Assembly (NCBI RefSeq): GCF_000306785.1 | Contig: NC_017955.1 | Location: forward strand, 4,774,001 to 4,838,000 | Direction of reading: 5' to 3' | DNA length: 64,000 nt | Origin: Modestobacter italicus | GTDB lineage: Bacteria > Actinomycetota > Actinomycetes > Mycobacteriales > Geodermatophilaceae | In this document: positions 33,973 to 57,753 of the stretch, in pieces | How positions within the stretch are numbered: position 1 is the stretch's first letter | How the letters are laid out: each line of letters opens with the position of its first letter | The notes under the pieces: generated by a model | Database searches by the model: none | The model's input: the letters and a program-made list of their open reading frames with translations, nothing else | Told to the model about the DNA's origin: nothing | Translations under genes and position numbers: made by a program

Positions 33973-34030
33973 GAAGGACCCCGTCCTCCTCACCCCTCGC
34001 AAGCTCGGGGCGAGCCTCTGGACGGGGCCG
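33973..34030 (+). repeat. Stop-linked palindromic repeat, copy A
   Basis: 58 nt starting GAAGGACCCC and ending GGGGCCG, one base after the TGA of the short ALDH gene. Outer arms GGACCCCGTCC and GGACGGGGCC pair over 10 bp with a bulged A. The core CTCGCAAGCTCG is shared with the copies at 40451, 55539 and 57696. It is identical over all 58 nt to copy B at 55539. Confidence 0.85.
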
Positions 34031-34083
34031 AAGGGCCGTCAACCGCCATGCGGACGCACAGCGTGATCGGGCAGGATCGTCCC

Positions 34084-35532
34084 GTGGCCCGCCCCAGCAT
34101 CGTCCCCATCGCCCTGACCCTCGACGACCGCACGGGCTACACGCTCTGGGCGCCGCCGTGGGAGGAGGACGGCGAGGAGTGGCAGGCGTTCCTCGGCAGC
34201 ACCGTCGACCTGCCGGCCGACATCAACGACGACGACCCGGAGGCCCCCGGGCCCACCGCCGTCGTGCACCTGTTCCCCTCCCCGGCAGCGCTGGCCGCCT
34301 TCTGCCGGGTGAGCACCGACCACGACCTGGCCGACCACCCGGTCTGGCCGGTCGTGGCGACGCTCGGGCCCGAGGACCTGACCCCGGACGAGGACCACCG
34401 CTTCGACCTCGACGGCGTCTACGACGTGGTCGCGGAGAACCCCGACCGGTGGGCGGTCGACGAGCTGGCCGCGACCCTGGACATCGTGGGCCGGCTGGCC
34501 GAGTGCTGCGAGACCCCCGTCGACGACGACGACGACGACGACGAGGACGACGACGATGAGACGGCGTTCGAGTCCGTCGCCGAGCTGGTCTCCCGCCCCG
34601 AGGTCGCCGCGCTGGGCCTGGGCATCGACGCCTTCCTCGGCCGCGACGGCGAGGGGGCCTGGGCGCGGCTGGGCACCGCGGTCGACGAGCTGTGGGAGGA
34701 CGTCCTCGAGGAGCTCGACGACCACCTCGACTGGACCGGTGCCGGGACCGTCACCACCGAGGACTACCCGTCCGCCGCCGAGGAGGCCGAGGCGCGGGCC
34801 GCCGAGCCGGAGGACGACGACGAGGACGACGACGAGGACCTGGACGACGCCCCGGCCCGGCCCGCCGCCGGCTCGACCGCAGCCGCCCCGGCCGAGGCCG
34901 CGACCGCCGGCATCCGGACGATCCGCGGCGGCAGCGAGCTCGCCGCCACCCCGGCCGCCGTCGCCGCCGCGCAGGAGTTCTGGGAGGCGGTCGGCATCCT
35001 GCCGGTGGAGGTCGTCGTCCCCGAGGGCCAGGGGGTGACGCTGCGCTGCTACGTCGAGGACCGGGCCCGGTTCCTCGGCCGCGAGGGCCAGGTCTTCGTG
35101 TTCCCGACCCCGGTGGCCCTGGCCCGGTTCTGCGCCGGCGACGAGGCCCACGACCTCACCGAGATCGCCTCCTGGGCCGAGGTCGCCGACACCGACACCC
35201 TGCCGCTGCCGGCCGACCAGGACCGCTACGACCTGGTGGAGATCTCCGAGGTGCTCGCCGAGGTCGCCCAGGGGGCCGGCGGCCTGGTCGAGCTGCGGGC
35301 GCTGCTGCAGCCGGTCGAGGGCGTGCTCGACCTCGCCGAGTACGCCGAGCTGCCCCGGGTGCAGCAGCAGCTCGCCGCGGACGCACCGCTGGGCCGGGTG
35401 GTGGCCCGCGCCGAGACCGACCCGCGCGCGCCGCTGTCCGCCGAGGAGGCGCCGGCGCTGGTGACCGCCTGGCAGCAGATCGTGGACGACATCGGCACCG
35501 CGCTGGTCTTCCGCTCCGACCTGGCGCGCTGA
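34084..35532 (+). CDS. Highly acidic actinobacterial protein of unknown function
   Basis: 482 residues from the GTG at 34084, which has AGGA 7 nt upstream. An ATG at 34048 lacks a site. Two copies of a globular module, one near residues 1-140 (LWAPPWEEDGEEWQAFLGS, VVHLFPSPAALAAFCR) and one near 300-450 (CYVEDRARFLGREGQVFVFP, PVALARFCAGDEAHDL), flank low-complexity linkers. The linkers contain Asp runs encoded by a GAC microsatellite (about 34520-34560) and a second DDDEDDDED stretch. No catalytic motif is evident. Similar proteins in this group of bacteria are sometimes labelled primosomal protein, without evidence that I know of. It is cytosolic, with no signal or membrane segment. Confidence 0.75.
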   Translation: MARPSIVPIALTLDDRTGYTLWAPPWEEDGEEWQAFLGSTVDLPADINDDDPEAPGPTAVVHLFPSPAALAAFCRVSTDHDLADHPVWPVVATLGPEDLTPDEDHRFDLDGVYDVVAENPDRWAVDELAATLDIVGRLAECCETPVDDDDDDDEDDDDETAFESVAELVSRPEVAALGLGIDAFLGRDGEGAWARLGTAVDELWEDVLEELDDHLDWTGAGTVTTEDYPSAAEEAEARAAEPEDDDEDDDEDLDDAPARPAAGSTAAAPAEAATAGIRTIRGGSELAATPAAVAAAQEFWEAVGILPVEVVVPEGQGVTLRCYVEDRARFLGREGQVFVFPTPVALARFCAGDEAHDLTEIASWAEVADTDTLPLPADQDRYDLVEISEVLAEVAQGAGGLVELRALLQPVEGVLDLAEYAELPRVQQQLAADAPLGRVVARAETDPRAPLSAEEAPALVTAWQQIVDDIGTALVFRSDLAR

Positions 35533-35544
35533 GCGATCACTTGC

Positions 35545-35609
35545 CGTTGATCATCGGCAGGTGGTCGCCGCTGCCGGCGTGGCGAGCGACCACTTGCCGA
35601 TGATCAACG
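35545..35609. repeat. 24-bp inverted repeat with TTGATCAT cores
   Basis: Arm 35545-35568 (CGTTGATCATCGGCAGGTGG...) and arm 35586-35609 are reverse complements with one mismatch. Each arm extends into its own smaller dyad (CACTTGCCG / CGGCAGGTG). It lies 12 nt after the stop of the acidic protein gene and before the helicase terminator. Confidence 0.75.
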
Positions 35610-35628
35610 CCGTCCGGACCCCCTGAGA

Positions 35629-35673
35629 ACGGCAACGGCCGGCCCCCGCAGTGCGGGGACCGGCCGTTGCCGT
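35629..35673. terminator. Strong hairpin terminator of the DEAD-box helicase gene
   Basis: Perfect 14-bp arms ACGGCAACGGCCGG (35629-35642) and the complement (35660-35673), plus an inner CCCCGC/GCGGGG stem. It sits 14 nt beyond the helicase stop and may also terminate the convergent gene. Confidence 0.8.
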
Positions 35674-35686
35674 CAGTGCTGCTGGC

Positions 35687-37330
35687 TCAGAAGCTCCGAG
35701 CCGGGCGGGCGGGGCGGCCGCCGGGGCGGTGCCCCTCACCCGAGCTGCGGTAGCCACCGGGACGACGGTCCCGGTCGCCGCCACCCGCGGAGCGATCCCG
35801 ATCGCCGTAGGAGCGCTCGCCCGAGGGGCGGCCTCCGTACGAGCGGTCGCGGTCGCCACCGGCAGGCCGGTCGGCAGCGGAGCGATCCCGATCGCCGTAG
35901 GAGCGCTCGCCCGAGGGGCGGTCTCCGTACGTGCGCTCGCGGTCGCCGGCGGGCCGACGCGGGCCACCCCGGTAGCCGGGACGGTCACCGGTGGGACGAC
36001 GCCCGTCGCGACCGCCGGCCGGACGGCGCGACTCGCGCACCGGACGGACGATCGGCTCGACGAACGTGCCACCGGCGACGAGGTCGGTGATGGGCGCGTC
36101 ACCCGGACGGATCCGGGTCACCTGCGGGTCCAGCTTGGCCTGGCGGAACCGGCGCTTGGCCTGCCCCACCTGGTCGGGCAGCAGCAGCGAGACCACGACA
36201 CCCGCGGCACCGGCGCGCGCGGTGCGGCCGGAGCGGTGCAGGTAGGTCTTGTGGTCTGCCGGCGGGTCGTAGTGCAGCACCAGCGACACGTCGTCGACGT
36301 GGATGCCACGCGCGGCGACGTCGGTGGCCACCAGCACCGGGCTGCGGGCGTCGGTGAACGCCTCCAGGGCCCGGCGGCGGGCCGACTGCGGCAGGCCACC
36401 GTGGATGGCCTCGGCCTTGATGCCGACCATCTGCAGGTTGTCGGCCAGCCGGTCGGCACCGTGCTGGGTGCGCACGAAGATGATGATCCGGCCCGGACGG
36501 GCGGCCATCGCCTCCGCGATCTTCAGCTTGTCCGGGAAGGACACGCTGTAGGCCAGGTGCTCGGCCTGCGGGCCGGTGTCAGCGGCCTTGGCGACCTCGT
36601 GCCGCGCCGGGTCCTTGAGGTAGCGACGCACCAGGGTGTCGACCTCGCCGTCCAGCGTGGCCGAGAACAGCAGCCGCTGACCGTCGGAGCGCGTCTGGTC
36701 GAGCAGCTCCTTGACCACCGGCAGGAAGCCGAGGTCGGACATGAAGTCGGCCTCGTCGATGACCGAGACGACGACCTCGGCGAGGGTCGCCTCGCCCTGG
36801 TTGATCAGGTCCTGCAGCCGCCCGGGGGTGGCGATGAGGACGTCGACGCCGCGGCGCAGCTGCTGGATCTGGCGGTACATCGAGGCACCGCCGTAGACGG
36901 CCGCCAGCTGCACGCCGTTGCTCTGGCCGAGGGGGGCCAGGTTGTCGTGCACCTGCTGGGCCAGCTCGCGGGTCGGCACGAGGATCAGGCCGCGGGGTGC
37001 GCGGCGACCCTGCTGCGGCTCCGCGCCGAGGCGGGCCAGCAGCGGCAGGCCGAAGGCCAGCGTCTTGCCCGAGCCGGTGGCGGCCTTGCCGAGCACGTCG
37101 CGCCCGGCGAGGGCGTCCGGCAGGGCGCTGGTCTGGATGGCGAACGGGTGGCGGATGCCCTTGCGCTCGAGCGCGGTGACCAGCGGCTGGGGCAGGCCCA
37201 GCTGGGCGAAGGTCGGGCCGGTGGGCTCGGCGGGGATCTCGGGGGTCTCCTCGGTCACGGCAGCCGTGTTCTCGGGGAGGTCGTTCGGGATTGCGGTGTT
37301 CTGGACGTCGACAGAGTCGAACGAGGACAA
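35687..37330 (-). CDS. DEAD-box ATP-dependent RNA helicase
   Basis: 547 residues from a TTG at 37330 with GGAG spaced 7 nt. The Q motif (GIRHPFAIQTSALPDALAGR), Walker A AATGSGKT, PTRELAQQ, TPGRL, the DEAD-position motif as DEAD in VIDEADFM, SAT, and the C-terminal RecA motifs (ATDVAARGIHV, HRSGRTARAG) are complete. The last 120 residues are an RG/RS/DR-rich tail with duplicated GERSYGDRDRS units, typical of cold-shock and ribosome-assembly helicases that bind RNA non-specifically. A 213-nt leader lies upstream. A longer in-frame extension to 37483 has atypical composition and is rejected. Confidence 0.93.
   Translation of the reverse strand: MSSFDSVDVQNTAIPNDLPENTAAVTEETPEIPAEPTGPTFAQLGLPQPLVTALERKGIRHPFAIQTSALPDALAGRDVLGKAATGSGKTLAFGLPLLARLGAEPQQGRRAPRGLILVPTRELAQQVHDNLAPLGQSNGVQLAAVYGGASMYRQIQQLRRGVDVLIATPGRLQDLINQGEATLAEVVVSVIDEADFMSDLGFLPVVKELLDQTRSDGQRLLFSATLDGEVDTLVRRYLKDPARHEVAKAADTGPQAEHLAYSVSFPDKLKIAEAMAARPGRIIIFVRTQHGADRLADNLQMVGIKAEAIHGGLPQSARRRALEAFTDARSPVLVATDVAARGIHVDDVSLVLHYDPPADHKTYLHRSGRTARAGAAGVVVSLLLPDQVGQAKRRFRQAKLDPQVTRIRPGDAPITDLVAGGTFVEPIVRPVRESRRPAGGRDGRRPTGDRPGYRGGPRRPAGDRERTYGDRPSGERSYGDRDRSAADRPAGGDRDRSYGGRPSGERSYGDRDRSAGGGDRDRRPGGYRSSGEGHRPGGRPARPARSF
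35787..35921. repeat. 90-nt period direct repeat in the helicase tail
   Basis: 45 nt at 35787-35831 recur exactly at 35877-35921. They encode the duplicated PSGERSYGDRDRSA unit, so the tail can expand or contract by 30 residues through recombination. Confidence 0.85.
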
Positions 37331-37543
37331 GCGGGAACTCCGATACAGATCGGTGCGCGTCCCGTGGTGATGCTTTCCGCCGGATGACCGGCGTCCACAC
37401 TGGTGATCGCCGCCGTCTGCGATGACGCGTGATCTGCACGGATGCGCTGCCCGGACAGGACCGTCCGGGAGGATGACCGGCACTCACCGGCACGATCAGG
37501 TTAGCAGCGCCGGCCCCGGAATGATTCCCGAGGCGGCGTGACC
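37331..37543 (-). promoter_or_regulatory. Long leader of the helicase gene
   Basis: 213 nt without a gene between add and the helicase. The Shine-Dalgarno GGAG lies at 37338-37341. The segment is less G+C-rich than its neighbours. I see no strong terminator, and long leaders are usual for cold-inducible DEAD-box genes, which is the basis for this call. Confidence 0.35.
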
Positions 37544-38617
37544 TCACTCGCGCAGGGCGGCGTACCCCGGTCGGACGACGTCGTGCAGCAGCCGCGTCCG
37601 CTCGCCGTCGTCGAGGAAGGCGCCGGTCAGCGCGCGCTCGGTGACCGTCTGGACGTCGTTCCAGCTCCAGCCGTGGGTGGCCACGACGTCGGCGAACTCG
37701 CTGGTCAGCGACACCCCGCTCATCAGCCGGTTGTCGGTGTTGAGGGTCACGGTGAAGCCGCCGCGGTGCAGCCGGCCGACCGGGTGCGCGGCGAGCGAGG
37801 GGTAGGCGCCGGTCTGCACGTTGGACGAGGGGGCGACCTCCAGCGGCACCCGCTCCTCCAGGACACGCCGCGCGACCGGGCCCAGCGGGCCGTCCAGCGG
37901 CACCTCGTCGGCGATCCGCACGCCGTGGCCGAGACGCTCGGCACCCGCGCCGTCCAGGGCCGCCCGGATGGACTCGATGCCGGCCGCCTCACCGGCATGG
38001 ATGGTGCGGTGCGCACCGGCCCGGTCGAGCAGCGCCAGGGCGTCGGGGATACGGTCCGGCGGGAAGCCGTCCTCGGGCCCGGCGAGGTCGAAGCCCACCA
38101 CGCCGGCGTCCCGGAAGGCGACGACCTGCTCGGCGACCTCGACCCAGCGGTCGGCCTGGCGCATGGCGCACAGCAGGGCGCCGACGACGATCGGCCGGCC
38201 CGCCGCGGCGGCCTCCCGGCTGCCCTGGGCGTACCCGTCGAGCATCGCCTCGACCGCGGCCTGCAGCGGCATGGCGGTGAGCAGCTCGGGGGCCATCCGC
38301 ACCTCGGCGTAGACGACGCCGTCGGCCGCCAGGTCCAGCGCGCACTCGCGCGCCACCCGCTGCACCGCCTCGGGCCGCTGCATCACCCCGACGGTGTGCG
38401 CGAAGGTGAGCAGGTAGCGCTCCAGCGAGCCGGAGTACGCGGCCTCGCGGAACCACCGGCCCAGCGCCTCCGGCTCGTCGGCCGGCAGCGCGCCGTAGCC
38501 CACCTCGTCGGCGAGCTCGAGGACGGTCTGCGGGCGCAGCCCGCCGTCGAGGTGGTCGTGCAGCAGCACCTTGGGCGCGCGGGCGAGGGTGGTGGCGTCC
38601 AGTGGTGCGGCGGGCAT
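37544..38617 (-). CDS. add: Adenosine deaminase
   Basis: 357 residues. Zinc ligands and catalytic residues are visible as KVLLHDHLDGGLRP (HxH), the EVRMAPEL strand, the HAGEAAG histidine/glutamate, GHGVRI and NTDNRLMSGVS with the late aspartate. It deaminates adenosine and deoxyadenosine to (deoxy)inosine, which PunA then phosphorolyses. add, deoA and cdd are also neighbours in M. tuberculosis (Rv3313c-Rv3315c). Here an exporter pair has come between add and deoA. The ATG at 38617 is 6 nt after a TAGCGT box. Confidence 0.95.
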   Translation of the reverse strand: MPAAPLDATTLARAPKVLLHDHLDGGLRPQTVLELADEVGYGALPADEPEALGRWFREAAYSGSLERYLLTFAHTVGVMQRPEAVQRVARECALDLAADGVVYAEVRMAPELLTAMPLQAAVEAMLDGYAQGSREAAAAGRPIVVGALLCAMRQADRWVEVAEQVVAFRDAGVVGFDLAGPEDGFPPDRIPDALALLDRAGAHRTIHAGEAAGIESIRAALDGAGAERLGHGVRIADEVPLDGPLGPVARRVLEERVPLEVAPSSNVQTGAYPSLAAHPVGRLHRGGFTVTLNTDNRLMSGVSLTSEFADVVATHGWSWNDVQTVTERALTGAFLDDGERTRLLHDVVRPGYAALRE

Positions 38618-38623
38618 CCCCGC

Positions 38624-38629
38624 ACGCTA
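38624..38629 (-). promoter_or_regulatory. -10 box TAGCGT, probable leaderless start of add
   Basis: TAGCGT on the minus strand ends 6 nt before the ATG at 38617. Confidence 0.6.
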
Positions 38630-38651
38630 CCCAGCCCCCCCGTCCGGTCCA

Positions 38652-38710
38652 GGCATAGGTACCTATACCTGCGGATCTGCCGCCAGAACGCAGGTAAAGG
38701 TACCTATGCC
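38652..38710. repeat. 22-bp inverted repeat centred on GGTACC palindromes
   Basis: GGCATAGGTACCTATACCTG... (38652-38673) and its complement at 38689-38710 differ at one base and enclose 15 nt. Each arm contains an AGGTACCT palindrome. The region is markedly less G+C-rich than its surroundings. It separates the exporter permease stop from the add promoter and may work as terminator, operator or mobile repeat. Confidence 0.8.
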
Positions 38711-38722
38711 CGGCGGGCGGGG

Positions 38723-39535
38723 TCAGCGGTCGATCTTGTCCTGCCAGCGGAACGTGCGGACGCAGAGCACCAGCCCGACGACGCACCAGATGCCCAGCAC
38801 CAGCGCGACCCGGCCCAGCTCCCAGCTGCCGGCCGGCTCCTGCGCGGCGAGCGCGTCGGGCAGGAACACCGAGCGCAGGCCCTGCGCCATCCACTTGAGC
38901 GGGAACAGCGCGGCGATCGTCTGCAGCCAGGTCGGCACCTGGCTGAACAGGAAGAAGACGCCGGAGATGAACTGCAATACCAGCGCGATCGGGGTGACCG
39001 TCGCCGAGGCCGACCGGCCGTTGCGGGCCAGGCTCGAGACGGCGATGCCCAGCAGGGTGCAGGCCGCCGAGCCCAGCCCGGCGACCCAGACGAAGGTGAT
39101 CCAGTCCGACCCCGACGGCAGGTCGACGCCGTAGAAGACCGCGCCGATGGCCAGCAGGATCGCGATGATCGCCACCGTGACGGCGAAGACCTGCACGACC
39201 TTGCCGACGAAGTAGGCGGCCTTCGGCATCGGGGTGCCGGCCAGGCCCTTGAGCGTGCCGTCGCTGCGCTCGGTGGCGATGTTGATCGCCATGTTCTGCA
39301 GGCTGGCGCCGAGGATGCCGGCGGCGATCACCCCGGCCATGAAGTACTGGGTGAAGGAGACGCCGCTGCCCAGGTCGTAGTCCAGGACCGCGCCGAAGAC
39401 CAGCAGCAGGATCACCGGGAACATCAGGGTGAAGACGACGGACTCGCGCTGCCGGAAGAACTCCTTGAGCTCCACCCCGGCACGGGTGCGGCAGACGCTG
39501 CCGACCGAGGGCAGCGGGCGGTCGACGGTCGTCAT
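38723..39535 (-). CDS. ABC-2 type exporter permease
   Basis: 270 residues with six predicted membrane helices. The N-terminal ELKEFFRQRESVVFTLMFPV amphipathic region and the C-terminal FPLKWMAQGLRSVFLPD motif are typical of drug or lipid ABC-2 permeases. Its ATG overlaps the stop of the ATPase gene by 4 nt, so the two form an exporter half-pair that presumably dimerises. Substrate unknown. Confidence 0.88.
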   Translation of the reverse strand: MTTVDRPLPSVGSVCRTRAGVELKEFFRQRESVVFTLMFPVILLLVFGAVLDYDLGSGVSFTQYFMAGVIAAGILGASLQNMAINIATERSDGTLKGLAGTPMPKAAYFVGKVVQVFAVTVAIIAILLAIGAVFYGVDLPSGSDWITFVWVAGLGSAACTLLGIAVSSLARNGRSASATVTPIALVLQFISGVFFLFSQVPTWLQTIAALFPLKWMAQGLRSVFLPDALAAQEPAGSWELGRVALVLGIWCVVGLVLCVRTFRWQDKIDR

Positions 39536-40422
39536 GAGGGCTCGCCGATCATCCGCAGGTACACGTCTTCCAGGGTCGGGCGGGCGACGGCCAGGTCCGG
39601 CACCTCGCCGGGGAACCGCGCCGCCAGCTCGGCGACGAACGCGGTGGGGGTGGCGGTCTCGGCCGCGCGCCGGACGCCGCCCTCGGTCCAGTGCACGACA
39701 GCCGGAGCCTGGCCGCGGCCGCCCAGCTCACTGGGGACGGCGACCTCGACCAGCCGGCCGCGGGCGATGACGCCCACCCGGTCGGCGAGCTCCTCGGCCT
39801 CGTCCAGGTAGTGCGTGGTGAGCAACATCGTCGTCCCCAGGTCGCGCAGGGAGCGGATGAGCGACCAGAACTGCCGGCGCGCCTCGGGGTCGAACCCGGT
39901 GGTCGGCTCGTCGAGGAAGAGCAGCCGGGGGCGGCCGACGATGCCCAGCGCGACGTCCAGCCGGCGCCGCTGCCCGCCGGAGAGGGTGCGCCCGCGGGCA
40001 CCGGCCTTCTCGGTCAGGCCGACCAGCTCGAGCACCTCGGCCGGGTCGCGCGGGTCGGGGTAGTAGGCGGCGTGCGCCCGGAGCAGCTCCAGGCAGGTCA
40101 GCTGGCTGTCCCCGGCGCCGGACTGCAGCACGATGCCGATGTCGGCCTTCCACCGGCGGCCACCGCGGGCCGGGTCGACCCCGAGCACCTGGACCTCCCC
40201 GCCGTCCCGCTCGCGGTAGCCCTCGAGCACCTCGACGGTGGTGGTCTTGCCGGCGCCGTTGGGGCCCAGCAGCGCGAAGATCTCCCCGCGCGCGATGTCG
40301 AGGTCCAGCCCGTCGACGGCGTTGCGGTCGCCGTAGCGCTTCACCAGGCCGCGCACCGAGATGGCGGCATCGGGGTCCACCGGGCTCATGACCGGCGCGG
40401 ACACGGTCGACGGACGGCTCAC
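39532..40422 (-). CDS. ABC exporter ATP-binding protein
   Basis: 296 residues. Walker A LGPNGAGKTTT, signature LSGGQRRRLDVALG, Walker B LLFLDEPTTG with H-loop TTHYLDE. The C-terminal 70 residues match the tail of DrrA-like ATPases. GTG start at 40422 with GGGGGAG about 12 nt upstream. An ATG at 40389 is an alternative. The promoter side abuts repeat copy C, which separates it from deoA. Confidence 0.9.
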   Translation of the reverse strand: MSRPSTVSAPVMSPVDPDAAISVRGLVKRYGDRNAVDGLDLDIARGEIFALLGPNGAGKTTTVEVLEGYRERDGGEVQVLGVDPARGGRRWKADIGIVLQSGAGDSQLTCLELLRAHAAYYPDPRDPAEVLELVGLTEKAGARGRTLSGGQRRRLDVALGIVGRPRLLFLDEPTTGFDPEARRQFWSLIRSLRDLGTTMLLTTHYLDEAEELADRVGVIARGRLVEVAVPSELGGRGQAPAVVHWTEGGVRRAAETATPTAFVAELAARFPGEVPDLAVARPTLEDVYLRMIGEPS

Positions 40423-40450
40423 GAAGGGTCAGTCTCCCCCATGCCCCTGT

Positions 40451-40509
40451 GGCCCCCTCGCAGGGTCCCGCCGCGAGCTTGCGAGTGGTGGGGGGCGAGG
40501 GGGTCCTTC
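40451..40509 (-). repeat. Stop-linked palindromic repeat, copy C
   Basis: 59 nt beginning GAAGGACCCC (minus strand), one base after the deoA TGA. Outer arms GGACCCCCTCGC and GCGAGGGGGCC pair with the same bulged A as the other copies, but with different stem bases. The core CTCGCAAGCTCGCGGCGGGA is shared with copy D. Confidence 0.85.
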
Positions 40510-40510
40510 G

Positions 40511-41794
40511 TCACGCGGTGATGCGGTCCAGGACCAGGGGGAGCGGCTCGTCGGCGGTGTCGACGCCGATCGCGCCCTCCAGCGCCTCCAGCGCCCGCGG
40601 GATCCGAGCGGCGTCGTCGGTCTGCAGCTCCAGCAGCGGCTGACCGGCGGTCACCTGCTCCCCCACCCCGGCGGTCCACACCACACCGGCCGCGGCCGAG
40701 ACCGGGTCCTCCTTGCGCGCCCGGCCGGCGCCCAGCCGCCAGGCCGCGACGCCGAGGGCGTAGGCGTCGAGCCGGGTCAGCGTGCCGGTGGCCGGGGCGG
40801 TGACCACGTGCCGCTCGGCCGGCTGCGGCAGCGCGGCGTCCGGATCGCCGCCCTGGGCGGCGATCATCCGGCGCCACACGTCCATGGCGCGGCCGTCGGC
40901 GAGGGCGTCGGCGGGGTCGACGTCGTCCCGGCCGACCCCGGCGAGCATCTCCCGGGCCAGCGCGAGGGTGAGCTCGACGACGTCGGCCGGGCCACCGCCG
41001 GCCAGCACCTCGACGGACTCGGCGACCTCCACGGCGTTGCCCGCGGCCCTGCCCAGCGGCCGGTCCATGGCGGTGACCAGGGCGACCGTGCGCACCCCGG
41101 CGGCCTCGCCCAGACCGACCATGGTGCGGGCCAGCGTGCGGGCGTCGTCGGGGTCGCGCATGAACGCGCCCGACCCGGTCTTCACGTCGAGCACCAGCGC
41201 GTCGGCGCCCTCGGCGATCTTCTTGCTCATGATCGAGCTGGCGATCAGCGGGATCGACTCGACCGTGCCGGTGACGTCGCGCAGCGCGTACAGCACCTTG
41301 TCGGCCGGGGCGAGGTCGTTGCCGGCCGCGCAGATGACCGCGCCGACGTCCCGCAGCTGAGACACGTACTCCTCGTCGCTCAGCGCCGCGCGCCAGCCGG
41401 GGACGGCCTCCAGCTTGTCCAGCGTCCCTCCGGTGTGGCCCAGGCCGCGGCCGGACAGCTGCGGCACAGCCACCCCGCAGGCGGCGACCAGCGGCGCGAG
41501 CGGCAGGGTGACCTTGTCCCCGACGCCGCCGGTGGAGTGCTTGTCGGCGGTCGGCCGGCCGAGCCCGGAGAGGTCCTTGCGGACGCCGGAGTCGATCATG
41601 GCCTGGGTCCAGACGGCCAGCTCCTCGGGCGTCATGCCGCGGAAGAACACCGCCATGAGCAGCGCGCTCATCTGCTCGTCGGGCACCTGCCCACCGGTGT
41701 AGGCACCGATCACCCAGCGGATCTGCTCGGCGGAGAGGACGACGCCGTCCCGCTTGGCACGGATGACGTCGATCGCGTCGAACGGCGCCGTCAT
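40511..41794 (-). CDS. deoA: Thymidine phosphorylase (pyrimidine-nucleoside phosphorylase)
   Basis: 427 residues. KHSTGGVGDKVTLPLAPLVA is the phosphate-binding signature, SGRGLGHTGGTLDKLEAVPG the family motif, and DVKTGSGAFM is part of the active site. The C-terminal PYNP domain is complete. It phosphorolyses thymidine and deoxyuridine to base and deoxyribose-1-phosphate. The ATG overlaps the cdd stop by 4 nt. Confidence 0.95.
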   Translation of the reverse strand: MTAPFDAIDVIRAKRDGVVLSAEQIRWVIGAYTGGQVPDEQMSALLMAVFFRGMTPEELAVWTQAMIDSGVRKDLSGLGRPTADKHSTGGVGDKVTLPLAPLVAACGVAVPQLSGRGLGHTGGTLDKLEAVPGWRAALSDEEYVSQLRDVGAVICAAGNDLAPADKVLYALRDVTGTVESIPLIASSIMSKKIAEGADALVLDVKTGSGAFMRDPDDARTLARTMVGLGEAAGVRTVALVTAMDRPLGRAAGNAVEVAESVEVLAGGGPADVVELTLALAREMLAGVGRDDVDPADALADGRAMDVWRRMIAAQGGDPDAALPQPAERHVVTAPATGTLTRLDAYALGVAAWRLGAGRARKEDPVSAAAGVVWTAGVGEQVTAGQPLLELQTDDAARIPRALEALEGAIGVDTADEPLPLVLDRITA

Positions 41795-42210
41795 GCCCTG
41801 GCCGCCGCCGCGACGAGGTCCTCGGGACCGAACGCGTCGGGCAGCACCTCGCGCATCATCACGATGCCCAGCGAGACGGTCTCGATGAGCATGTCCGCGC
41901 CGCCGTGCTCCCAGAGCAGCTGCCGGCAGCGGCCGCAGGGCATCAGCGGCTGGCCGTCCCCGCCGACGCAGGCCACCGCCACCAGCCGGCCGCCGCCGGT
42001 GCGGGCGAGGTCGCTGACCATGCCGCACTCGGCGCACAGGCCCAGCCCGTAGGAGGCGTTCTCGACGTTGCAGCCGGTGACGACCCGACCGTCGTCCACC
42101 AGCCCGGCGACGCCGACCGGGAACTGCGAGTACGGCGCGTAGGCGTGCGTCATCGCCTCCCGGGCCGCCGCGCGCAGCGCGTCCCAGTCCAGGTCGGGTA
42201 CCTGTGCCAC
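41791..42210 (-). CDS. cdd: Cytidine deaminase
   Basis: 139 residues. Zinc site NVENASYGLGLCAECG (CAE) and MPCGRCRQLL (PCxxC), the homotetrameric CDA type. It converts (deoxy)cytidine to (deoxy)uridine ahead of DeoA. GTG start with GGAG spaced 7 nt. The first base of its start is shared with the last base of the upstream permease stop. Confidence 0.95.
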   Translation of the reverse strand: MAQVPDLDWDALRAAAREAMTHAYAPYSQFPVGVAGLVDDGRVVTGCNVENASYGLGLCAECGMVSDLARTGGGRLVAVACVGGDGQPLMPCGRCRQLLWEHGGADMLIETVSLGIVMMREVLPDAFGPEDLVAAAARA

Positions 42211-47450: not shown

Positions 47451-47634
47451 GACGGTCTCCTCTCTCGGAGGGCACGGCCGGCCCTCGGCAGGCCCGCGCC
47501 CCGGTGCTGTGTCGTCCAGGTTCCCCCGCCGTCCGGCTCCCGCGGTGAGGCGGCTCGGCCAGCGACGGCGACCTCGGCACGCTAACTGCGGCTCCGCCGC
47601 CGATGGCCGCCCGGGAACGGATAGAGACCCGATC

Positions 47635-47730: not shown

Positions 47731-47736
47731 CCTGGG

Positions 47737-49083: not shown

Positions 49084-49092
49084 CGGGGTCGG

Positions 49093-49689: not shown

Positions 49690-49690
49690 G

Positions 49691-50740
<1,050 letters not shown>

Positions 50741-51865
50741 TCAGGTGCCTGCAGCTCCTGCGGGCTCGCTGGTCAGGACCTCGTCCAGCGCGCCGAGGAA
50801 GACGTCGTCCTCCTCCGGGGTCCCGACGGTCACCCGCAGCCCCTCGCCTGCGAAGGGCCGGGTGATCACCGCCCGCGCCTCGAGCGCCGCCGCCACGTCG
50901 GTGGTGCGCTCCCCCAGCGGCAGCCAGACGAAGTTGGCCTGGCTGTCGGCGACTGCGAGGCCGCGGCGGCGCAGCTCGGCGGTCAGCCGCGCCCGCTCCG
51001 CCACGACGGCGGCGCAGCGGGCCCGCACCTCGTCCTCGCTGGCCAGCGCGGCCACCGCGGCGGCCTGGGCGAGGGTCGAGACGCTGAACGGCACGTGCGT
51101 GCGGCGGACGGCGTCGGCGACGGCCGGGTCCTCGGCCAGCAGGTAGCCCACCCGCAGCCCGGCCAGGCCCCAGGCCTTGGAGAAGGTGCGCAGGACCGCG
51201 ACGTTGGGCCGGCCGCGCATCAGCTCGACGCCGTCGGGCACGTCGGGGTCGGTGACGAACTCGCGGTAGGCCTCGTCCAGCACGACGAGGGTGGCGGCGG
51301 GCACCTCGTCGAGGAAGCGCTCCAGCTCCGCCCGGCGCACCGCCGTCCCGGTGGGGTTGTTCGGGTTGCAGACGAAGACCAGCCGGGTCGTCCCGTCGAT
51401 CGCCGCGGCCAGCGCGGGCAGGTCGTGGGTGTCCGGTGCCGCGCCGGGCGACCCGGGGACGAGCGGCACCTGCTGGGTGCGCGCGCCGGCGACCTGGGCG
51501 AGCAGCGGGTACATCTCGAACGACCGCCAGGCGAAGGCGATGCTGGTGCCCGGGTCATTGTATGCCTGCGCCAGCTGCTGGCAGACGGTCACCGCGCCGC
51601 AGCCGACGGCGACCTGCGCCGGCTGCACGCCGTACCGCTCGGCGAGCGCCGCGGTGAGCACGGTGGCCCCGTTGTCGGGGTACCGGTTGGTCTCGGCGGC
51701 GGTGGTGGCGATCGCCTGCAGGACGGCGGGCAGCGGCGGGAAGGCGACCTCGTTGCTGGCCAGCTTCACCGCCCGCTCGACGCCGATCTCCCGGGCCAGG
51801 TCGGCGGGGTTGCGACCGGGCCGGTACGCCGGCATCGCGGCCACGGCGGGACGTGCGCTGACCAC
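50741..51865 (-). CDS. pat: Aromatic/histidinol-phosphate-type aminotransferase (Pat/HisC2)
   Basis: 374 residues, PLP fold type I. LASNEVAFPPLPAVLQA at the N-terminus, the CNPNNPTGT motif, DEAYREF, and the PLP lysine in RTFSKAWGLAGLRVGY. The subfamily covers HisC and the actinobacterial phenylalanine aminotransferase Pat. Absence of his genes nearby favours Pat, a weak argument. GTG start with GGAGGAG 7 nt upstream. It is divergent from galE. Confidence 0.88.
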   Translation of the reverse strand: MVSARPAVAAMPAYRPGRNPADLAREIGVERAVKLASNEVAFPPLPAVLQAIATTAAETNRYPDNGATVLTAALAERYGVQPAQVAVGCGAVTVCQQLAQAYNDPGTSIAFAWRSFEMYPLLAQVAGARTQQVPLVPGSPGAAPDTHDLPALAAAIDGTTRLVFVCNPNNPTGTAVRRAELERFLDEVPAATLVVLDEAYREFVTDPDVPDGVELMRGRPNVAVLRTFSKAWGLAGLRVGYLLAEDPAVADAVRRTHVPFSVSTLAQAAAVAALASEDEVRARCAAVVAERARLTAELRRRGLAVADSQANFVWLPLGERTTDVAAALEARAVITRPFAGEGLRVTVGTPEEDDVFLGALDEVLTSEPAGAAGT

Positions 51866-51915
51866 GCGGGCTCCTCCTCCGCACGTCCGGGCCGCACCCC
51901 GGACGGGGCGCTGTC

Positions 51916-51921
51916 TAGGCT
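51916..51921 (+). promoter_or_regulatory. -10 box TAGGCT, probable leaderless start of galE
   Basis: TAGGCT ends 6 nt before the ATG at 51928, with no Shine-Dalgarno sequence. Confidence 0.65.
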
Positions 51922-51927
51922 CGCACC

Positions 51928-52881
<954 letters not shown>

Positions 52882-52885
52882 GGCG

Positions 52886-54223
52886 CTACCGGCGGGTGTG
52901 CTCCTGCGGCGCCGGTTCCGTCTCGTCGGTGTCCGGCTGCGGTGCGGCGCTGACCGAGATCCGGGCGATCCGCCGTCCGTCGAGCTCGAGCACGGTCAGC
53001 GTGCGGCCCTCGACGTCGACGGTGTCCCCCACCACCGGCAGCCGGCCGAGCTCGGCCAGCACGTAGCCCGCGACGGTCTCGTAGGGCCCCTCGGGGAGCT
53101 TGAGCCCGGTCGCGTCGGCGAAGTCGTCGAGGTTCCACAGCCCGTCGACCTCGTGCGGCCCCTCGGCCGGCTCGTCGGACTCGGCGGTGACGTCGTCGTC
53201 GTACTCGTCGTAGATGTCACCGATGACCTCCTCGATGAGGTCCTCGAGGGTGACGATCCCGTCGGTGCCGCCGTACTCGTCGACCACGATCGCGAAGTGC
53301 CGGTTCTCCTTGCGCATCTCCGACAGCGCGGTGAGCACCCGCGCCGTGCCCGGCAGCCGCTTCACCTCGCGGGCCAGGTCGCCGACGGTCGCGGCGCGGC
53401 CGGCCGGGTGGTTGGGCAGGAAGAGGTCGCGCACGTGCACGAAGCCGACGACGTCGTCCTCGTTGCGGCCGGCGACCGGGTACCGGGACCAGCTGGAGTC
53501 GGCGACCTGCTTGGCCGCGCGGCTGGCGGTGGTGCCCGCGTCGAGGAAGTGGACCTCGGTGCGGGGGGTCATGACCTCGCGCACCTCGCGGTCACCGGCC
53601 CGGAAGACCTCGTCGATCAGCCGGCGCTCGTCGGAGGACAGCGACTCGTGCGCGGCGACCAGGTCGCGCAGCTCCTCCTGGCTGATCGACTCACCGCTCG
53701 CCCGCGGGTCACCGCCGAGCAGCCGCACCAGCACGTTGGTCGACGCCGAGAGGAACCAGATGATCGGCCGGAACAGCGTGGCGATGGCGTTGAGCGGGGC
53801 GGCCACGACCAGCGAGAACCCCTCGGCGCGCTGCAGCGCCAGCCGCTTGGGGGTCAGCTCGCCGACGACCAGCGACAGGTAGCTGATCGCGATCGTGACG
53901 GCGACGAAGGCGAGCGGGTCGGCCAGGCCGCGGGACATCCCCCGGCTCGGCACCCCCCCATTCGGCCCAGGGGTCCGAAAAGGGGCCTCCCCCCCAACGG
54001 GGCGGAAAAAAAACCGCCCCGGGGGACCCCCCCCCGGGGGCGGGGAGGAACTGGTTGGGTTCGGGAAGGGGCTTTTTAAGGCCCTCCCCCCGGGGGCCCT
54101 TTTCGGCAAGTGGGGGGCCTTGGACTCACGGAGGGACACCAGTGCGATCTCGGCGCCGGAGAAGGCGCCGCCGATCAGCACGAAGGCGATCACCATGACG
54201 ATGTTGAGCCAGACGTCGCTCAC
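52886..54223 (-). CDS. CNNM/CorC-type protein with CBS pair; N-terminal domain appears corrupted in this assembly
   Basis: 445 residues from the GTG at 54223. A DUF21 membrane domain (SDVWLNIVMVIAFVLIGGAF, then LADPLAFVAVTIAISYLSL) is followed by GELTPKRLALQRAEGFS, a CBS pair (REVMTPRTEVHFLDAG to TDGIVTLEDLIEEVIGD) and a C-terminal CorC_HlyC domain. Family members move or sense Mg2+/Co2+ at the membrane. Residues about 35-96 (53937-54121) are not believable: the conserved Q-V-R region, DPNRFL and VGVTLAGF helix are replaced by Pro/Gly/Phe runs of the same length. The gene is probably intact in the cell. No clear Shine-Dalgarno site precedes the GTG. Confidence 0.85.
   Translation of the reverse strand: MSDVWLNIVMVIAFVLIGGAFSGAEIALVSLRESKAPHLPKRAPGGRALKSPFPNPTSSSPPPGGGPPGRFFFRPVGGEAPFRTPGPNGGVPSRGMSRGLADPLAFVAVTIAISYLSLVVGELTPKRLALQRAEGFSLVVAAPLNAIATLFRPIIWFLSASTNVLVRLLGGDPRASGESISQEELRDLVAAHESLSSDERRLIDEVFRAGDREVREVMTPRTEVHFLDAGTTASRAAKQVADSSWSRYPVAGRNEDDVVGFVHVRDLFLPNHPAGRAATVGDLAREVKRLPGTARVLTALSEMRKENRHFAIVVDEYGGTDGIVTLEDLIEEVIGDIYDEYDDDVTAESDEPAEGPHEVDGLWNLDDFADATGLKLPEGPYETVAGYVLAELGRLPVVGDTVDVEGRTLTVLELDGRRIARISVSAAPQPDTDETEPAPQEHTRR
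53937..54121. other. Probable sequence-quality artefact (homopolymer-rich stretch)
   Basis: Runs such as eight A, nine C, six G and TTTTTAAGG occur here and nowhere else in the window. The reading frame stays open and the residue count matches the conserved family alignment, with Gly and Pro positions largely kept, which suggests substitutions toward the neighbouring base rather than real divergence or insertion. Confidence 0.75.
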
Positions 54224-54375
54224 GAGCGGCGTGCTCCTCCAAGATGTGGTCCTCGACGGGAGTGTCCCGTGGTCGACCACGGTAGTGGCTGCGGCAGGGC
54301 GCCGATCCCACTGATCAACTCGCACGTCCCACCGGGGTGTTCCCCGCGCGACACTCCGGTGACGGAACGCACCCA

Positions 54376-54394
54376 GTTACCCTCGCTCGGTAAC
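54376..54394 (+). promoter_or_regulatory. GTTACC-N7-GGTAAC palindrome over a -10 candidate
   Basis: GTTACC (54376-54381) and GGTAAC (54389-54394) form a perfect 6-bp dyad. TACCCT inside the first arm could be the -10 box of the CAP-domain gene. A repressor site overlapping the promoter is a reasonable guess. Confidence 0.45.
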
Positions 54395-54424
54395 GATTCG
54401 TGATCTGCCGTGAGGACCTCCACC

Positions 54425-55333
54425 GTGCCCTTCCGCTCCCTCCCCTCCCCCGCCCGACTGCGCGGGTGGCGCCGGCTCTGGGCCCCCCTGGCGCTGTCCT
54501 GCTCGGTGGGCTCGGTGGCGCTCACCGCCGCGATCGGCGGGGGCCAGCTGCCGGGCACGCACGACGCCGCGAGCGCATCGGCCGCGCAGCAGAGCGGCTG
54601 GGCATCGCCGGCCCCGAGCAGCAGCCCCTCCTCCCCGGTGGCGCCGGTCGTGGTGCCGACGACCGCCGCCCCGTCGTCCGCCGTCCCGACGACCGCCGCC
54701 CCGACGACCGCCGTCCCCACCACCCCGGCCCCGTCGACCGTGTCGACGCAGCCCTCGACCGCCGCCCCGACGACCCGCGCGGTCCCGGCGCCCCGGACGA
54801 CGGCGACCTCCGCGGCGCCGGTGACCCGCTCGACCCCCACCGCGCCCGCCCCGGCGGCCAGCACGACGGCGACCCCCGCGCCCGAGCCGGCACCGGCTCC
54901 CGCACCGGCTCCCGTCGCTCCTGCGCCCGCGCCGGCTCCTGCCGCCCCGGCGGCCGCGCCCGGGCCGGAGGGGCAGGTGCTCGCCCTGGTCAACGCCCAG
55001 CGGGCGACGGCCGGGTGCGGCCCGGTCGCCGCCGACGACCGGCTGGCCGCGGTCGCCCGGGCGCACAGCGCCGACATGCGGGACCGCCGCTACTTCGCGC
55101 ACACCAACCCCGACGGCCTGGACCCGTTCGCGCGGGCGCGGGCGGCCGGCATCACGTACGCGCGGGCCGAGAACATCGCCTACGGGCAGCCGGACGCCGC
55201 CGCCGTCATGGCGGCGTGGATGGCCAGCCCCGGGCACCGGGCGAACATCCTGAACTGCGAGCTGCGCACGCTGGGCGTCGGCGTGGCCCAGGGCGCCGGC
55301 GGCCCGTGGTGGACCCAGCTCTTCGGCGGCTGA
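54425..55333 (+). CDS. Secreted CAP-domain (SCP/PR1-like) protein
   Basis: 302 residues from the GTG at 54425, with AGGA spaced 10 nt. A GTG at 54410 would add five residues but lacks a site. An N-terminal signal/anchor (APLALSCSVGSVALTAAIGG) is followed by a disordered Ala/Pro/Thr/Ser linker of about 125 residues. The C-terminal CAP domain (about 180-302) has LVNAQRATAGCGPV, ARAHSADMRDRRYFAHTNPD, RAENIAYG and MASPGHRANILNCELRTLGV, with the conserved His and Glu positions and two cysteines likely to pair. CAP proteins are extracytoplasmic. The function of bacterial ones is mostly unknown. The stop codon lies inside an inverted repeat. Confidence 0.88.
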   Translation: MPFRSLPSPARLRGWRRLWAPLALSCSVGSVALTAAIGGGQLPGTHDAASASAAQQSGWASPAPSSSPSSPVAPVVVPTTAAPSSAVPTTAAPTTAVPTTPAPSTVSTQPSTAAPTTRAVPAPRTTATSAAPVTRSTPTAPAPAASTTATPAPEPAPAPAPAPVAPAPAPAPAAPAAAPGPEGQVLALVNAQRATAGCGPVAADDRLAAVARAHSADMRDRRYFAHTNPDGLDPFARARAAGITYARAENIAYGQPDAAAVMAAWMASPGHRANILNCELRTLGVGVAQGAGGPWWTQLFGG

Positions 55334-55384
55334 TCACCTCGGGTCCGCCGGTGCCTCCCGCGGCCGGTGGACCCGAGGTGATCA
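55331..55384. repeat. GATC-type inverted repeat sharing two stop codons, copy 1
   Basis: TGATCACCTCGGGTCC (55331-55346) and its exact complement (55369-55384). The first three bases are the CAP gene stop and the last three are the stop of the convergent DUF559-type gene. It probably also serves as a bidirectional terminator. Confidence 0.85.
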
Positions 55385-56272
55385 CCAGGCGAGAGCGGCG
55401 GCGATGCCGGCCAGCAGCTCGGCGGGACGGCGCACGTCCTGCTTCGTCACGAAGTGCACGCGCCAGCCTGCTGCGGTGATCCGGTTGAGGCGGCGCCGGT
55501 CCTCCGGGAACTGCGCCACGTCGCCGTGCCAGGCACCCGGCCCCGTCCAGAGGCTCGCCCCGAGCTTGCGAGGGGTGAGGAGGACGGGGTCCTTCCGGAA
55601 GCGGCCGTCGACGCGGACTTGGTACTGGGCGACCGGCCGGGGCAGCTCCGAGCGGTGCAGCAGCAGCCGCAAGCGGGTCTCCGGCGGGGACTCCGCGAGA
55701 CCGTCGGCGAGCGACGCCGTCCGCCGCGCGGCGACGGTGCCCCGCCCACCCGGCGGCAGGGCGGCCACCGCCGCCCGCACGTCGGCGAGCGCCACCACCC
55801 GAGCCGTGACCAGCCGGTCCAGCAGCACCACGGACTCGTCGCCCTCGTCCCGGCGGATCAGGTCCACCGCGGTGCGCACCCGGCTCGTCCAGCGCAGCAC
55901 CCGCCCGGACCGGACGACGTCACCGGCCAGCGGCGCGCTGCGCACCCGCACGCCCGGACCCGGCGTCCAGCGGGTGCCGGGCGGTACGACGACCTCGACC
56001 GGGTCGTCGACCGACGCCAGGTCGTCGAGCCCCCACAGGACCGCGGCGGTGCGGCCGCCGAGCGCCGCGGCGCGGGGCATCACCAGGCTCACCCCGCGGG
56101 CCAGCAGCTGGTGGTCGACGGCCAGGTCCGCGTCGGCGTAGACGTCCCGGCGCAGCCGGCGCCACGCGCTGCTGCGCAGCTGCTGCTCGGTCAGCAGTCC
56201 GGCGCCGACCGCCCAGGTGCCGCGGAAGACGCGGCCACGCAGCTCGGCGGGGCGCAGCGGGGGCACGGGCAC
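55382..56272 (-). CDS. DUF559/AbiEi-like protein with a repeat element in its endonuclease-fold domain
   Basis: 296 residues. The N-terminal part (GAGLLTEQQLRSSAWRRLRR, ALGGRTAAVLWGLDDL) resembles the AbiEi-like domain of actinobacterial proteins whose C-terminus is a DUF559, Vsr-like nuclease fold. The C-terminus keeps YQVRVDGRF and then GAWHGDVAQFPEDRRRLNRI and AAGWRVHFVT. Between them, where family members have the VD...W...EYDG acidic core, stands KDPVLLTPRKLGASLWTGP, encoded exactly by repeat copy B. The presumed active-site acidic residues are therefore lost although the frame is intact. The protein is probably non-functional as a nuclease. GTG start at 56272, with a second GTG two codons later. 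Confidence 0.72.
   Translation of the reverse strand: MPVPPLRPAELRGRVFRGTWAVGAGLLTEQQLRSSAWRRLRRDVYADADLAVDHQLLARGVSLVMPRAAALGGRTAAVLWGLDDLASVDDPVEVVVPPGTRWTPGPGVRVRSAPLAGDVVRSGRVLRWTSRVRTAVDLIRRDEGDESVVLLDRLVTARVVALADVRAAVAALPPGGRGTVAARRTASLADGLAESPPETRLRLLLHRSELPRPVAQYQVRVDGRFRKDPVLLTPRKLGASLWTGPGAWHGDVAQFPEDRRRLNRITAAGWRVHFVTKQDVRRPAELLAGIAAALAW
55539..55596 (-). repeat. Stop-linked palindromic repeat, copy B, inside a coding sequence
   Basis: 58 nt identical to copy A at 33973 but on the opposite strand. It is read in frame by the DUF559-type gene and lacks the preceding TGA seen at the other three copies. Confidence 0.9.
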
Positions 56273-56325
56273 CGGCGGAGCGTGCCGGACGAGCGCACCG
56301 GGCCGCTGGCGTCGTCCACAGGTCG

Positions 56326-56390
56326 GTGATCATCTCGGCTCCACCGTTGCCTCCCGCGGTTGGAGGCAACGCTGGACCCGAGGTGATCAC
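56326..56390. repeat. GATC-type inverted repeat, copy 2
   Basis: GTGATCATCTCGGCTCC (56326-56342) and GGACCCGAGGTGATCAC (56374-56390) are imperfect arms. An inner perfect stem GTTGCCTCC/GGAGGCAAC lies at 56346-56370. Copy 1 shares the outer arm and the CCTCCCGCGG centre. The two copies bracket the DUF559-type gene. Confidence 0.8.
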
Positions 56391-56408
56391 GGCCCCGGAC
56401 GCACCGCA

Positions 56409-56435
56409 GCCCCCTCACCCGGGAGGTGAGGGGGC
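56409..56435 (-). terminator. icd terminator hairpin
   Basis: An 11-bp stem GCCCCCTCACC (56409-56419) with GGTGAGGGGGC (56425-56435), 20 nt beyond the icd stop. Confidence 0.75.
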
Positions 56436-56454
56436 CGCGGTCACGGGGTGGTGC

Positions 56455-57669
56455 TCAGGCCATGGCCTTCTGCAGGTTGGCGTCGATGGCCGCCAGGAAG
56501 TCCTGGGTGGTCAGCCAGGGGGCGTCCTTGCTGATCAGCAGGGCGAGGTCCTTGGTCATCTGACCGCTCTCGACGGTCTCGACGCAGACGCGCTCGAGGG
56601 TCTCCGCGAAGCGGGTCACCTCGGGGGTGCCGTCGAGCACGCCGCGGTGGGCCAGGCCCCGGGTCCAGGCGAAGATCGACGCGATCGGGTTGGTCGAGGT
56701 CTCCTTGCCCTGCTGGTGCTGGCGGTAGTGCCGGGTCACCGTGCCGTGGGCGGCCTCGGCCTCGACGACCTTGCCGTCCGGGGTGGCCAGGACCGAGGTC
56801 ATCAGGCCGAGCGAGCCGAAGCCCTGCGCCACGGTGTCGGACTGCACGTCACCGTCGTAGTTCTTGCAGGCCCAGACGTAGCCGCCCTCCCACTTCAGCG
56901 AGGCGGCGACCATGTCGTCGATCAGCCGGTGCTCGTAGGTGATGCCGGCGGCGTCGAACTGCTCCTTGAACTCGGTCTGGTAGACCTCCTCGAAGATGTC
57001 CTTGAACCGGCCGTCGTAGGCCTTGAGGATCGTGTTCTTCGTGGACAGGTACACCGGGTAGCCGCGGTTGAGCCCGTAGTTCAGCGAGGCCCGCGCGAAG
57101 TCGTAGATCGACTCGTCGAGGTTGTACATCGACAGCGAGACACCGGCGCCCGGCGCCTGGAAGACCTCGCGCTCGATGGGCTCGCCGCCGTCCTCGGGGG
57201 TGAAGACGACCTTCAGCGTGCCGGCGGTCGGGAAGGTGAAGTCGGTGGCGCGGTACTGGTCGCCGTAGGCGTGCCGGCCGATGATGATCGGCTTGGTCCA
57301 GCCCGGTACGAGCCGCGGCACGTTCTGCATGATGATCGGCTCGCGGAAGATGACGCCGCCGAGGATGTTGCGGATCGTCCCGTTCGGGGAGCGCCACATC
57401 TTCTTCAGGCCGAACTCCTCGACCCGCGCCTCGTCGGGGGTGATGGTGGCGCACTTGACGCCCACACCGTGCTGCTTGATGGCGTTGGCCGCGTCGATCG
57501 TGACCTGGTCGTCGGTCGCGTCGCGGTTCTCCATGCCGAGGTCGTAGTACTCGAGGTCGACGTCGAGGTACGGGAGGATCAGCTGGTCCTTGATGAACTG
57601 CCAGATGATCCGGGTCATCTCGTCGCCGTCGAGCTCGACGACCTTGCCCTCGACCTTGATCTTGCTCAC
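56455..57669 (-). CDS. icd: NADP-dependent isocitrate dehydrogenase
   Basis: 404 residues, the dimeric eukaryote-like type (M. tuberculosis Icd1). [18 protein letters not shown] at the N-terminus, [13 protein letters not shown] substrate phosphorylation-loop region, [20 protein letters not shown] with catalytic Lys and metal-binding Asp, and [20 protein letters not shown] for NADP. It decarboxylates isocitrate to 2-oxoglutarate. The GTG at 57669 has GGAG 9 nt upstream. Repeat copy D lies between mdh and icd, about 27 nt from the start codon. Confidence 0.96.
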
Positions 57670-57695
57670 AGACTTCTTCTCCTTGTGCTTCTCAT

Positions 57696-57753
57696 GGCCC
57701 CGCTGCAGGGTCCCGCCGCGAGCTTGCGAGGGGTGGGGGCAGTGGGGTCCTTC
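57696..57753 (-). repeat. Stop-linked palindromic repeat, copy D
   Basis: 58 nt beginning GAAGGACCCC (minus strand) one base after the mdh TGA. Outer arms GGACCCCACTGC and GCAGCGGGGCC pair with one mismatch and the same bulge. The core is nearly identical to copy C. It forms most of the mdh-icd spacer, so it can act as terminator or leader hairpin. Confidence 0.85.

Follow-up and report, generated by a model that had tools for sequence, protein, structure and literature searches.

A stretch of 64,000 nucleotides (nt) from Modestobacter italicus (contig NC_017955.1, positions 4,774,001 to 4,838,000; hereafter the window) was analyzed for a palindromic repeat of about 60 nt, which was found in four copies, designated A to D. 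These copies belong to a large family seated at stop codons, in which the covariation between the two arms of the hairpin is real, yet unlike what selection on an RNA would be expected to leave. The copies and the features next to them are listed below, with coordinates counted from the first letter of the window.

33973..34030, plus strand: repeat copy A of the short sub-type, 63.8 bits; begins one base 3' of a TGA; variable stem GTCC/GGAC
33969..33971, plus strand: TGA stop of a 288-amino-acid Aldedh-family gene (33105-33971; Pfam family)
40451..40509, minus strand: repeat copy B of the long sub-type, 83.6 bits; begins one base 3' of a TGA; variable stem CTCGC/GCGAG
40511..40513, minus strand: TGA stop of a pyrimidine nucleoside phosphorylase (deoA-like) gene (40511-41794)
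55539..55596, minus strand: repeat copy C, within the open reading frame (ORF) 55382-56272; variable stem GTCC/GGAC
55382..56272, minus strand: host ORF of copy C, DUF559-like by its orthologues
57696..57753, minus strand: repeat copy D; variable stem CTGC/GCAG with an A-C mismatch; 67.7 bits
57755..57757, minus strand: TGA stop of the lactate/malate dehydrogenase (mdh) gene
56455..57669, minus strand: isocitrate/isopropylmalate dehydrogenase-family gene downstream of copy D

All four copies lay where a first-pass annotation, made from the letters of the window, had placed them, and they scored strongly (62.8-83.6 bits, E ≤1.3e-11) in a window search with a covariance model for which copy B (40451) was one of ten seeds. 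The shared features that it had described were recovered as well, with the CTCGCAAGCTCG core matched exactly in 4/4 window copies and the bulged A seen in 4/4. Three copies stand behind TGA-N, as had been proposed: A after the Aldedh-family gene, B after the deoA-like gene, and D after the lactate/malate dehydrogenase gene, where it is intergenic between mdh and the isocitrate dehydrogenase gene, one base 3' of the mdh TGA. The stem variants are also real, with their assignment amended, as GTCC/GGAC belongs to the copies at 33973 and 55539, CTCGC/GCGAG to that at 40451, and CTGC/GCAG to that at 57696. Copies A and C share a 57-nt identity and form the sole whole-element identical pair among the 138 copies compared. 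No tRNA genes were found in the window, and no Rfam 15 family matched it at gathering scores, with one copy unmatched at E values up to 1; a known RNA family was rejected for lack of an Rfam match.

Copy number and taxonomic distribution

The covariance model, built from the ten seeds, was run on the 5,575,517-base single-contig genome and identified at least 148 copies, a lower bound because scoring stopped at 150 candidates. The pattern GAAGGACCCC occurred 100 times in the genome versus 12 times for the pattern read backwards, and by both counts the abundance of the repeat is far beyond chance. At least 148 copies in 5.6 Mb correspond, roughly, to one marked gene end among a few dozen, and annotation of the family could be useful. 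Neighboring copies showed a mild excess only (6 under 1 kb versus 3.9 expected, and 14 under 2.5 kb versus 9.4), and clustering as transposon pairs was rejected on this ground. The region from 1.5 to 2.5 Mb is copy-poor, with 8 and 1 copies per half-megabase versus 22 and 22 in the two preceding half-megabases.

The wider genome search suggested by the first-pass annotation showed the repeat to be nearly confined to the Geodermatophilaceae. Within the genus, 23/23 genomes were positive, with 18 to at least 153 matches per genome at a scoring scope of 150 candidates. Across the family, where strict filters were applied and at most 56 candidates were scored per genome, matches were found in 91 of the 96 genomes, with five genomes having none and four having one to five. 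A draw of 298 genomes from the order included 60 positives, 58 of which were in Geodermatophilaceae. Among the 80 matches listed from a pattern scan of named genomes, nearly all were in Geodermatophilus, Blastococcus, Modestobacter, Klenkia, Goekera, or Geodermatophilaceae, plus one Aeromicrobium and one Frankiales record.

Two genomes from other families of the same order, G149 and G158, had two and one model matches, with best E values of 3.6e-12 and 2.3e-11, respectively. Five genomes (G023, G051, G039, G029, and G088) had zero to five matches each, though their genera include copy-rich genomes. One 81-nt repeat query was unmatched in both the phage and the plasmid collections, and carriage by either was rejected on that result. 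No description of this repeat was found among the literature titles listed, and it is absent from the passages of PMC9686282 on palindromic or repeat sequences.

Position at the stop codon

Seat positions were counted from the base before GAAGG, which is the N of the foot NGAAGG. The first-pass annotation had proposed a fixed attachment to stop codons, with a genome-wide excess set beforehand as its test, and a massive excess was found: by the ORF criterion, a stop codon lay at -6..+1 in 113 of the 148 copies and at -15..+1 in 121, and several of the remaining 27 also show a stop triplet there on inspection by eye. The repeat start most often reads TGA-N-GAAGG, with TGA at -3 in 76/148 copies and TAG or TAA at -3 in none. 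Targeting of any TGA combined with gene avoidance was rejected, as it predicts 35% at stops versus the 71/76 observed. TAG stops occurred mainly at -1, where they are completed by the foot, or at -4, where 6/9 read TAGA. GA was present at -2,-1 in 79/121 stop copies and in 12/27 others, and therefore the foot may begin with GA; against this idea, which is weak, the base after the nine TAG stops at -4 was A in six, T in two, and C in one.

By in-house gene calling, which covered 597 kb and gave 664 genes, the repeat lies largely outside of genes, and 14/148 copies share more than 20 nt with a called gene. The other 134 copies included 122 that follow a same-strand gene, 112 of these with a gap of -4 to +2. 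When the 14 gene-overlapping copies were set aside, tandem gene pairs contained 69 copies in sense and 8 in antisense orientation. In convergent pairs, the 5' gap was at -4..+2 in 50/53 and the 3' gap in 16/53, and the spacing of convergent pairs with the element peaks near the element's own length. At least one antisense copy (4582375) seems to trail a small gene missed by the gene caller.

Relatives showed the same placement in 38 of 52 copies tested by the stop criterion (52 of 54 matches, with L152:3009 and L149:16059 left out). A pattern search was also made in 56 family genomes; among the 150 places listed, which are those with TCA at most 20 nt from the foot, all were in nine genomes of one other genus, and the TCA spacing was exactly 1 in 96 of them and any other spacing occurred in at most 10.

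The stop seat and the strand bias of 69 to 8 would suit a selected mRNA 3'-end element, in which the hairpin, 4 nt after the stop in the commonest form, would serve translation termination, ribosome stalling, or a block to 3'-exonucleases. This reading is considered possible, though doubtful. It has a precedent among the repetitive extragenic palindromic (REP) sequences of E. coli: PMC12306157 places about 11% of the listed REPs (446/4,072) no more than 15 nt from a stop codon and reports ribosome stalling at such REPs. The likeness lies in a stable hairpin close behind the stop, and the difference in its frequency, as 121/148 copies here have a stop at -15..+1 versus about 11% there.

Transcription termination was weighed in the same context, as the repeat could be an off-the-shelf terminator, given that strong hairpins also stand just 3' of the stop at convergent gene ends that lack it. 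At 48 such ends, the mean folding energy of the 40 nt 3' of the stop was -20.2 kcal/mol, versus about -14 kcal/mol elsewhere. These native hairpins are likewise without a U-tract by eye, and the spacing peak noted above is in line with such a role. Native convergent ends bear hairpins right behind the stop, and the element therefore shares that place. In contrast, an intrinsic terminator combines a hairpin with a U-tract, and a U-tract (at least four T in the next 10 nt) followed 0/148 copies, by which a U-tract terminator was rejected. Moreover, 10/16 convergent pairs with 28-170 nt of room have a perfect stem of their own, 12 bp or longer, beyond the element, and 69 copies lie between tandem genes. 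A terminator role is hence regarded as unlikely.

Structure and stem covariation

The repeat forms a compound hairpin of about 60 nt, composed of the foot NGAAGG, the bulged A, an outer stem with a freely variable middle, an A-C mismatch, a CTCGCNNGCTCG-type loop, and a one-sided CCCTG internal loop. An alignment was made of 138 of the 148 copies, for which 100 of 108 sources were used, with eight seed loci left out and two seeds kept. The foot read NGAAGG in most of these, the commonest ends were GAAGG and GGCCG, the bulged A was retained in 133/138 copies, and the loop and internal loop showed little variation. A tail like GTTCCAGCACGTCACC was found on 24/148 copies.

Two-sided stem changes, which the first-pass annotation had expected to hold across many copies, were abundant: 372 two-sided cells were counted in the 138 copies, and 91.8% of cells were paired versus 42-56% with slid partners. 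The copies carry 39 different outer arms that pair perfectly, and for 35 of these a further such arm lies a single pair away, with C-G to G-C flips among the steps. Eleven variable pairs gave 1481 cells, of which 1430 were Watson-Crick, 13 wobble, 22 A-C, and 16 other, where independent columns would predict about 121 wobbles and about 127 A-C. Because the window is without a tRNA, native hairpins at convergent ends served as the RNA yardstick; wobbles made up 6.9% of predicted pairs in 26 of these versus 1.1% in the element.

These counts bear on the mRNA 3'-end element from both sides. The conserved bulge and loop and a folding energy of -28.6 to -38.4 kcal/mol in seven copies favor it. The same seven copies fold 1.2 to 3.1 standard deviations below shuffled sequence, a modest excess because the DNA is so GC-rich, and by energy alone the case is weaker. 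Against it, wobbles are no commoner than A-C mismatches, and an A-C mismatch has been kept at site D in three species. Strict Watson-Crick pairing, gene 3'-end seats, and conserved unpaired features would also be expected if the element acted as DNA and were bound at the ends of genes by a host protein, for instance one involved in supercoiling or replication, for which gyrase and the bacterial interspersed mosaic elements (BIME) of E. coli offer an analogy. However, such a site leaves the one-base stop distance unexplained by itself, and copies are not kept at orthologous sites, which makes it a quite improbable account.

Stem changes at orthologous sites

Orthologous sites were compared in 19 of the 21 relatives searched (G002 and G006 were left out). 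At site D, before the isocitrate dehydrogenase gene, 12 orthologous copies showed 62 one-sided and one two-sided pairwise differences in the outer stem, and at site B six copies showed five one-sided and none two-sided. Counted against the consensus, sites D and B together gave eight one-sided and no two-sided outer-stem changes. In contrast, the nearest paralogues at different sites differed by 32 one-sided and 56 two-sided changes (113/138 copies, with 1-6 differences). The contrast between vertical and paralogous changes had a Fisher p of 0.0006, in which the cells are not independent; the paralogue count by nucleotide distance was relied on, as a choice by event distance favors two-sided changes by construction.

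RNA selection is disfavored because wobbles are as rare as A-C mismatches and because stem changes at the two loci followed are one-sided. The first-pass annotation had held that compensatory change means selection on the fold, either as RNA or as a DNA hairpin recognized by a mobilizing enzyme. The covariation on which it relied is genuine and the RNA version is disfavored, whereas the DNA-hairpin version fits better, but no Y1/RAYT enzyme was found in 93 family genomes. Its proposed comparison of orthologous loci showed variation in presence, sub-type, and orientation, while the stem changes at sites D and B were one-sided and uncompensated. The six copies at site 4578542 have upstream flanks with 88-98% identity, yet they belong to different sub-types and showed 26 two-sided versus five one-sided differences, which are read as whole-copy replacement. 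On that reading, the two arms would match from the birth of a copy and would drift later.

Turnover, apparent replacement, and inversion

Copies at a given site were variable among relatives. The element at site D was found in 11/19 relatives and was absent from the same gene end in 8/19, where other sequence lies 3' of the stop. This absence, together with the 5/96 family genomes without a match, also weighs against the mRNA 3'-end element. At site B, the element was present in 5/19 relatives and degenerate in one, and the repeat can alter the protein end. Species differed at the same site in presence, in sub-type, and, once, in orientation: at site 1179322 in G003 (L141), the copy is inverted relative to the orthologous site. 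Short scars seem to persist behind some stops by eye, and in G033 a 66-nt unit is repeated without change three times in a row at the end of a contig.

Copy C provided an apparent case of replacement within a gene. Here 64 nt occupy the place of 58 nt of the G021 orthologue, with the reading frame preserved. Set beside the clean insertion with target duplication that marks a DNA transposon or MITE, copy C thus shows an exchange of unequal stretches, and site D shows alleles with other sequence behind the stop. Two orthologues of the host ORF match DUF559 (PF04480) above the cut-off, whereas the window protein matched no Pfam family at E 0.1, such that the DUF559 match is lost.

Other hairpins were seen at the sites without the repeat. 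At site D, five of the eight alleles without it (L130, L132, L136, L138, and L139) have a small hairpin, CTCTGACC...GGTCAGAG, spanning the stop by eye. At site B, a long palindrome whose two ends bear CATGGAGC and GCTCCATG lies 3' of the stop in species without the repeat (L131, L132, and L134).

Comparison with known repeat families

In the broad sense, the family resembles REPs as a short palindromic repeat of high copy number that is mostly extragenic (at least 148 copies, 14 of which overlap genes by more than 20 nt), while a REP unit is 20-40 bp and the unit here is about 60 nt, or 66 nt in the tandem of one genome. As described in passages of PMC3733652, REP families in other bacteria lie near gene 3' ends (less than 20 bp in two diagrammed species) and often supply a TAG stop. 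The contention of the first-pass annotation that the placement is unlike ordinary REP scatter is thus overstated, as the seat is sharper here but has a precedent in 3'-end REPs that supply TAG stops.

Two groups of REPs in those passages of PMC3733652 come closest. The CGTC-tagged orphan REPs share the high copy number of short palindromes near 3' ends, some of them intragenic, and have no dedicated transposase known, and differ in that the element here is a compound hairpin of about 60 nt with the foot NGAAGG and a commonest seat one base after TGA. The GTAG REPs and REPINs with RAYT share a one-sided foot, gene 3' ends, and termini supplying a TAG stop, whereas no GTAG foot and no Y1 transposase in 93 family genomes were found here. 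The Rickettsia palindromic elements treated in the same passages are palindromes in frame inside genes, as is copy C, and differ in that overlap with a called gene here exceeds 20 nt in 14/148 copies.

Among actinobacteria, the mycobacterial interspersed repetitive units (MIRU) are a dispersed repeat reported at TGA stop sites that is not known to be a palindrome.

A Y1/RAYT transposase (PF01797, E 0.001) was found in 0/93 family genomes from 11 genera, the genome under study included, with the control matching 5/14 genomes; the search was limited to the RAYT/IS200 type, and other transposase families were not searched. Mobilization of the RAYT/IS200 type was rejected, as no gene was found in the own genome or in the 93 family genomes. 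A classical REP moved by a RAYT-type Y1 tyrosine transposase that has since been lost would account for the shape of foot and bulge, the 3'-end location, and the intragenic copies, which resemble GTAG and CGTC REPs in the passages of PMC3733652. It is nevertheless very hard to credit, given the lack of Y1_Tnp in 93 genomes, a foot that is neither GTAG nor CGTC, and the host DNA missing at copy C.

Proposed mode of dispersal

We lean, with somewhat better than even confidence, towards reading the repeat as a family of non-autonomous palindromes in Geodermatophilaceae, REP-like but orphan, that is seated at stop codons and would have spread by fold-back DNA. Copies would spread as DNA that is single-stranded or folded back on itself, such that one arm would template, or be selected together with, the other arm. 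Stop-codon junctions would survive, as the foot and a host T often yield a stop (TGA, TAG, or TAA), and short-patch replacement may be the landing mode. Once in place, a copy would be mostly tolerated and not maintained. The fuller version of this proposal is tentative and rather doubtful: a self-matching palindrome without a transposase of its own, whose new arms match because one is copied from the other by fold-back, and which lands by short patch at stops where the foot rebuilds the stop. If true, the dispersal of such a palindrome would be driven by the replication or repair of the host, and its place would be set by the stop codon.

Several points weigh against dispersal by fold-back DNA. 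The tandem-pair strand bias and the tight stop distance are as expected of RNA-level function, and the conservation of the bulge, loop, and internal loop need not be explained by a mere by-product of copying. Wobbles may look rare because the copies are young. The vertical comparison comprises two sites and eight changes, with cells and species non-independent, and sites E, F, H, and K are two-sided between orthologous positions (26, 10, 8, and 2 pairwise differences, respectively), which are read as swaps of whole copies but are countable as compensation. The element lies beside a native hairpin at 1179322 and 4578542, as in plain insertion. With one whole-element identical pair in 138 copies, copying in the very recent past must be rare. 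Neither a donor nor an enzyme nor an intermediate was found, and gains and losses at sites were read without polarization on a tree.

Covariation in repeats is often taken as proof of RNA selection, and this family, with dozens to more than 100 copies per genome in many sequenced relatives, lets that inference be tested. The first tests point to arms written together during dispersal, and they raise the question of what brings a repeat to within one or a few bases of the stop when no usual transposase is found.

Other palindromes and sub-types

Other palindromes, of the GTGGAGTG type, were seen directly behind stops in L121 and L130 (3' of the site B stop) and in the own genome at about 253415-253466. 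Palindromes of the GTGGAGTG and CATGGAGCC types behind stops were set aside, as they had few copies in the DNA regions examined. A GAAACAC sub-type of the repeat was found at 1174551 in the own genome and at L146:2764, in an apparent coding region; it occurred in these two species and not in the five others compared, and by eye its host region resembles a 2'-5' RNA ligase gene.

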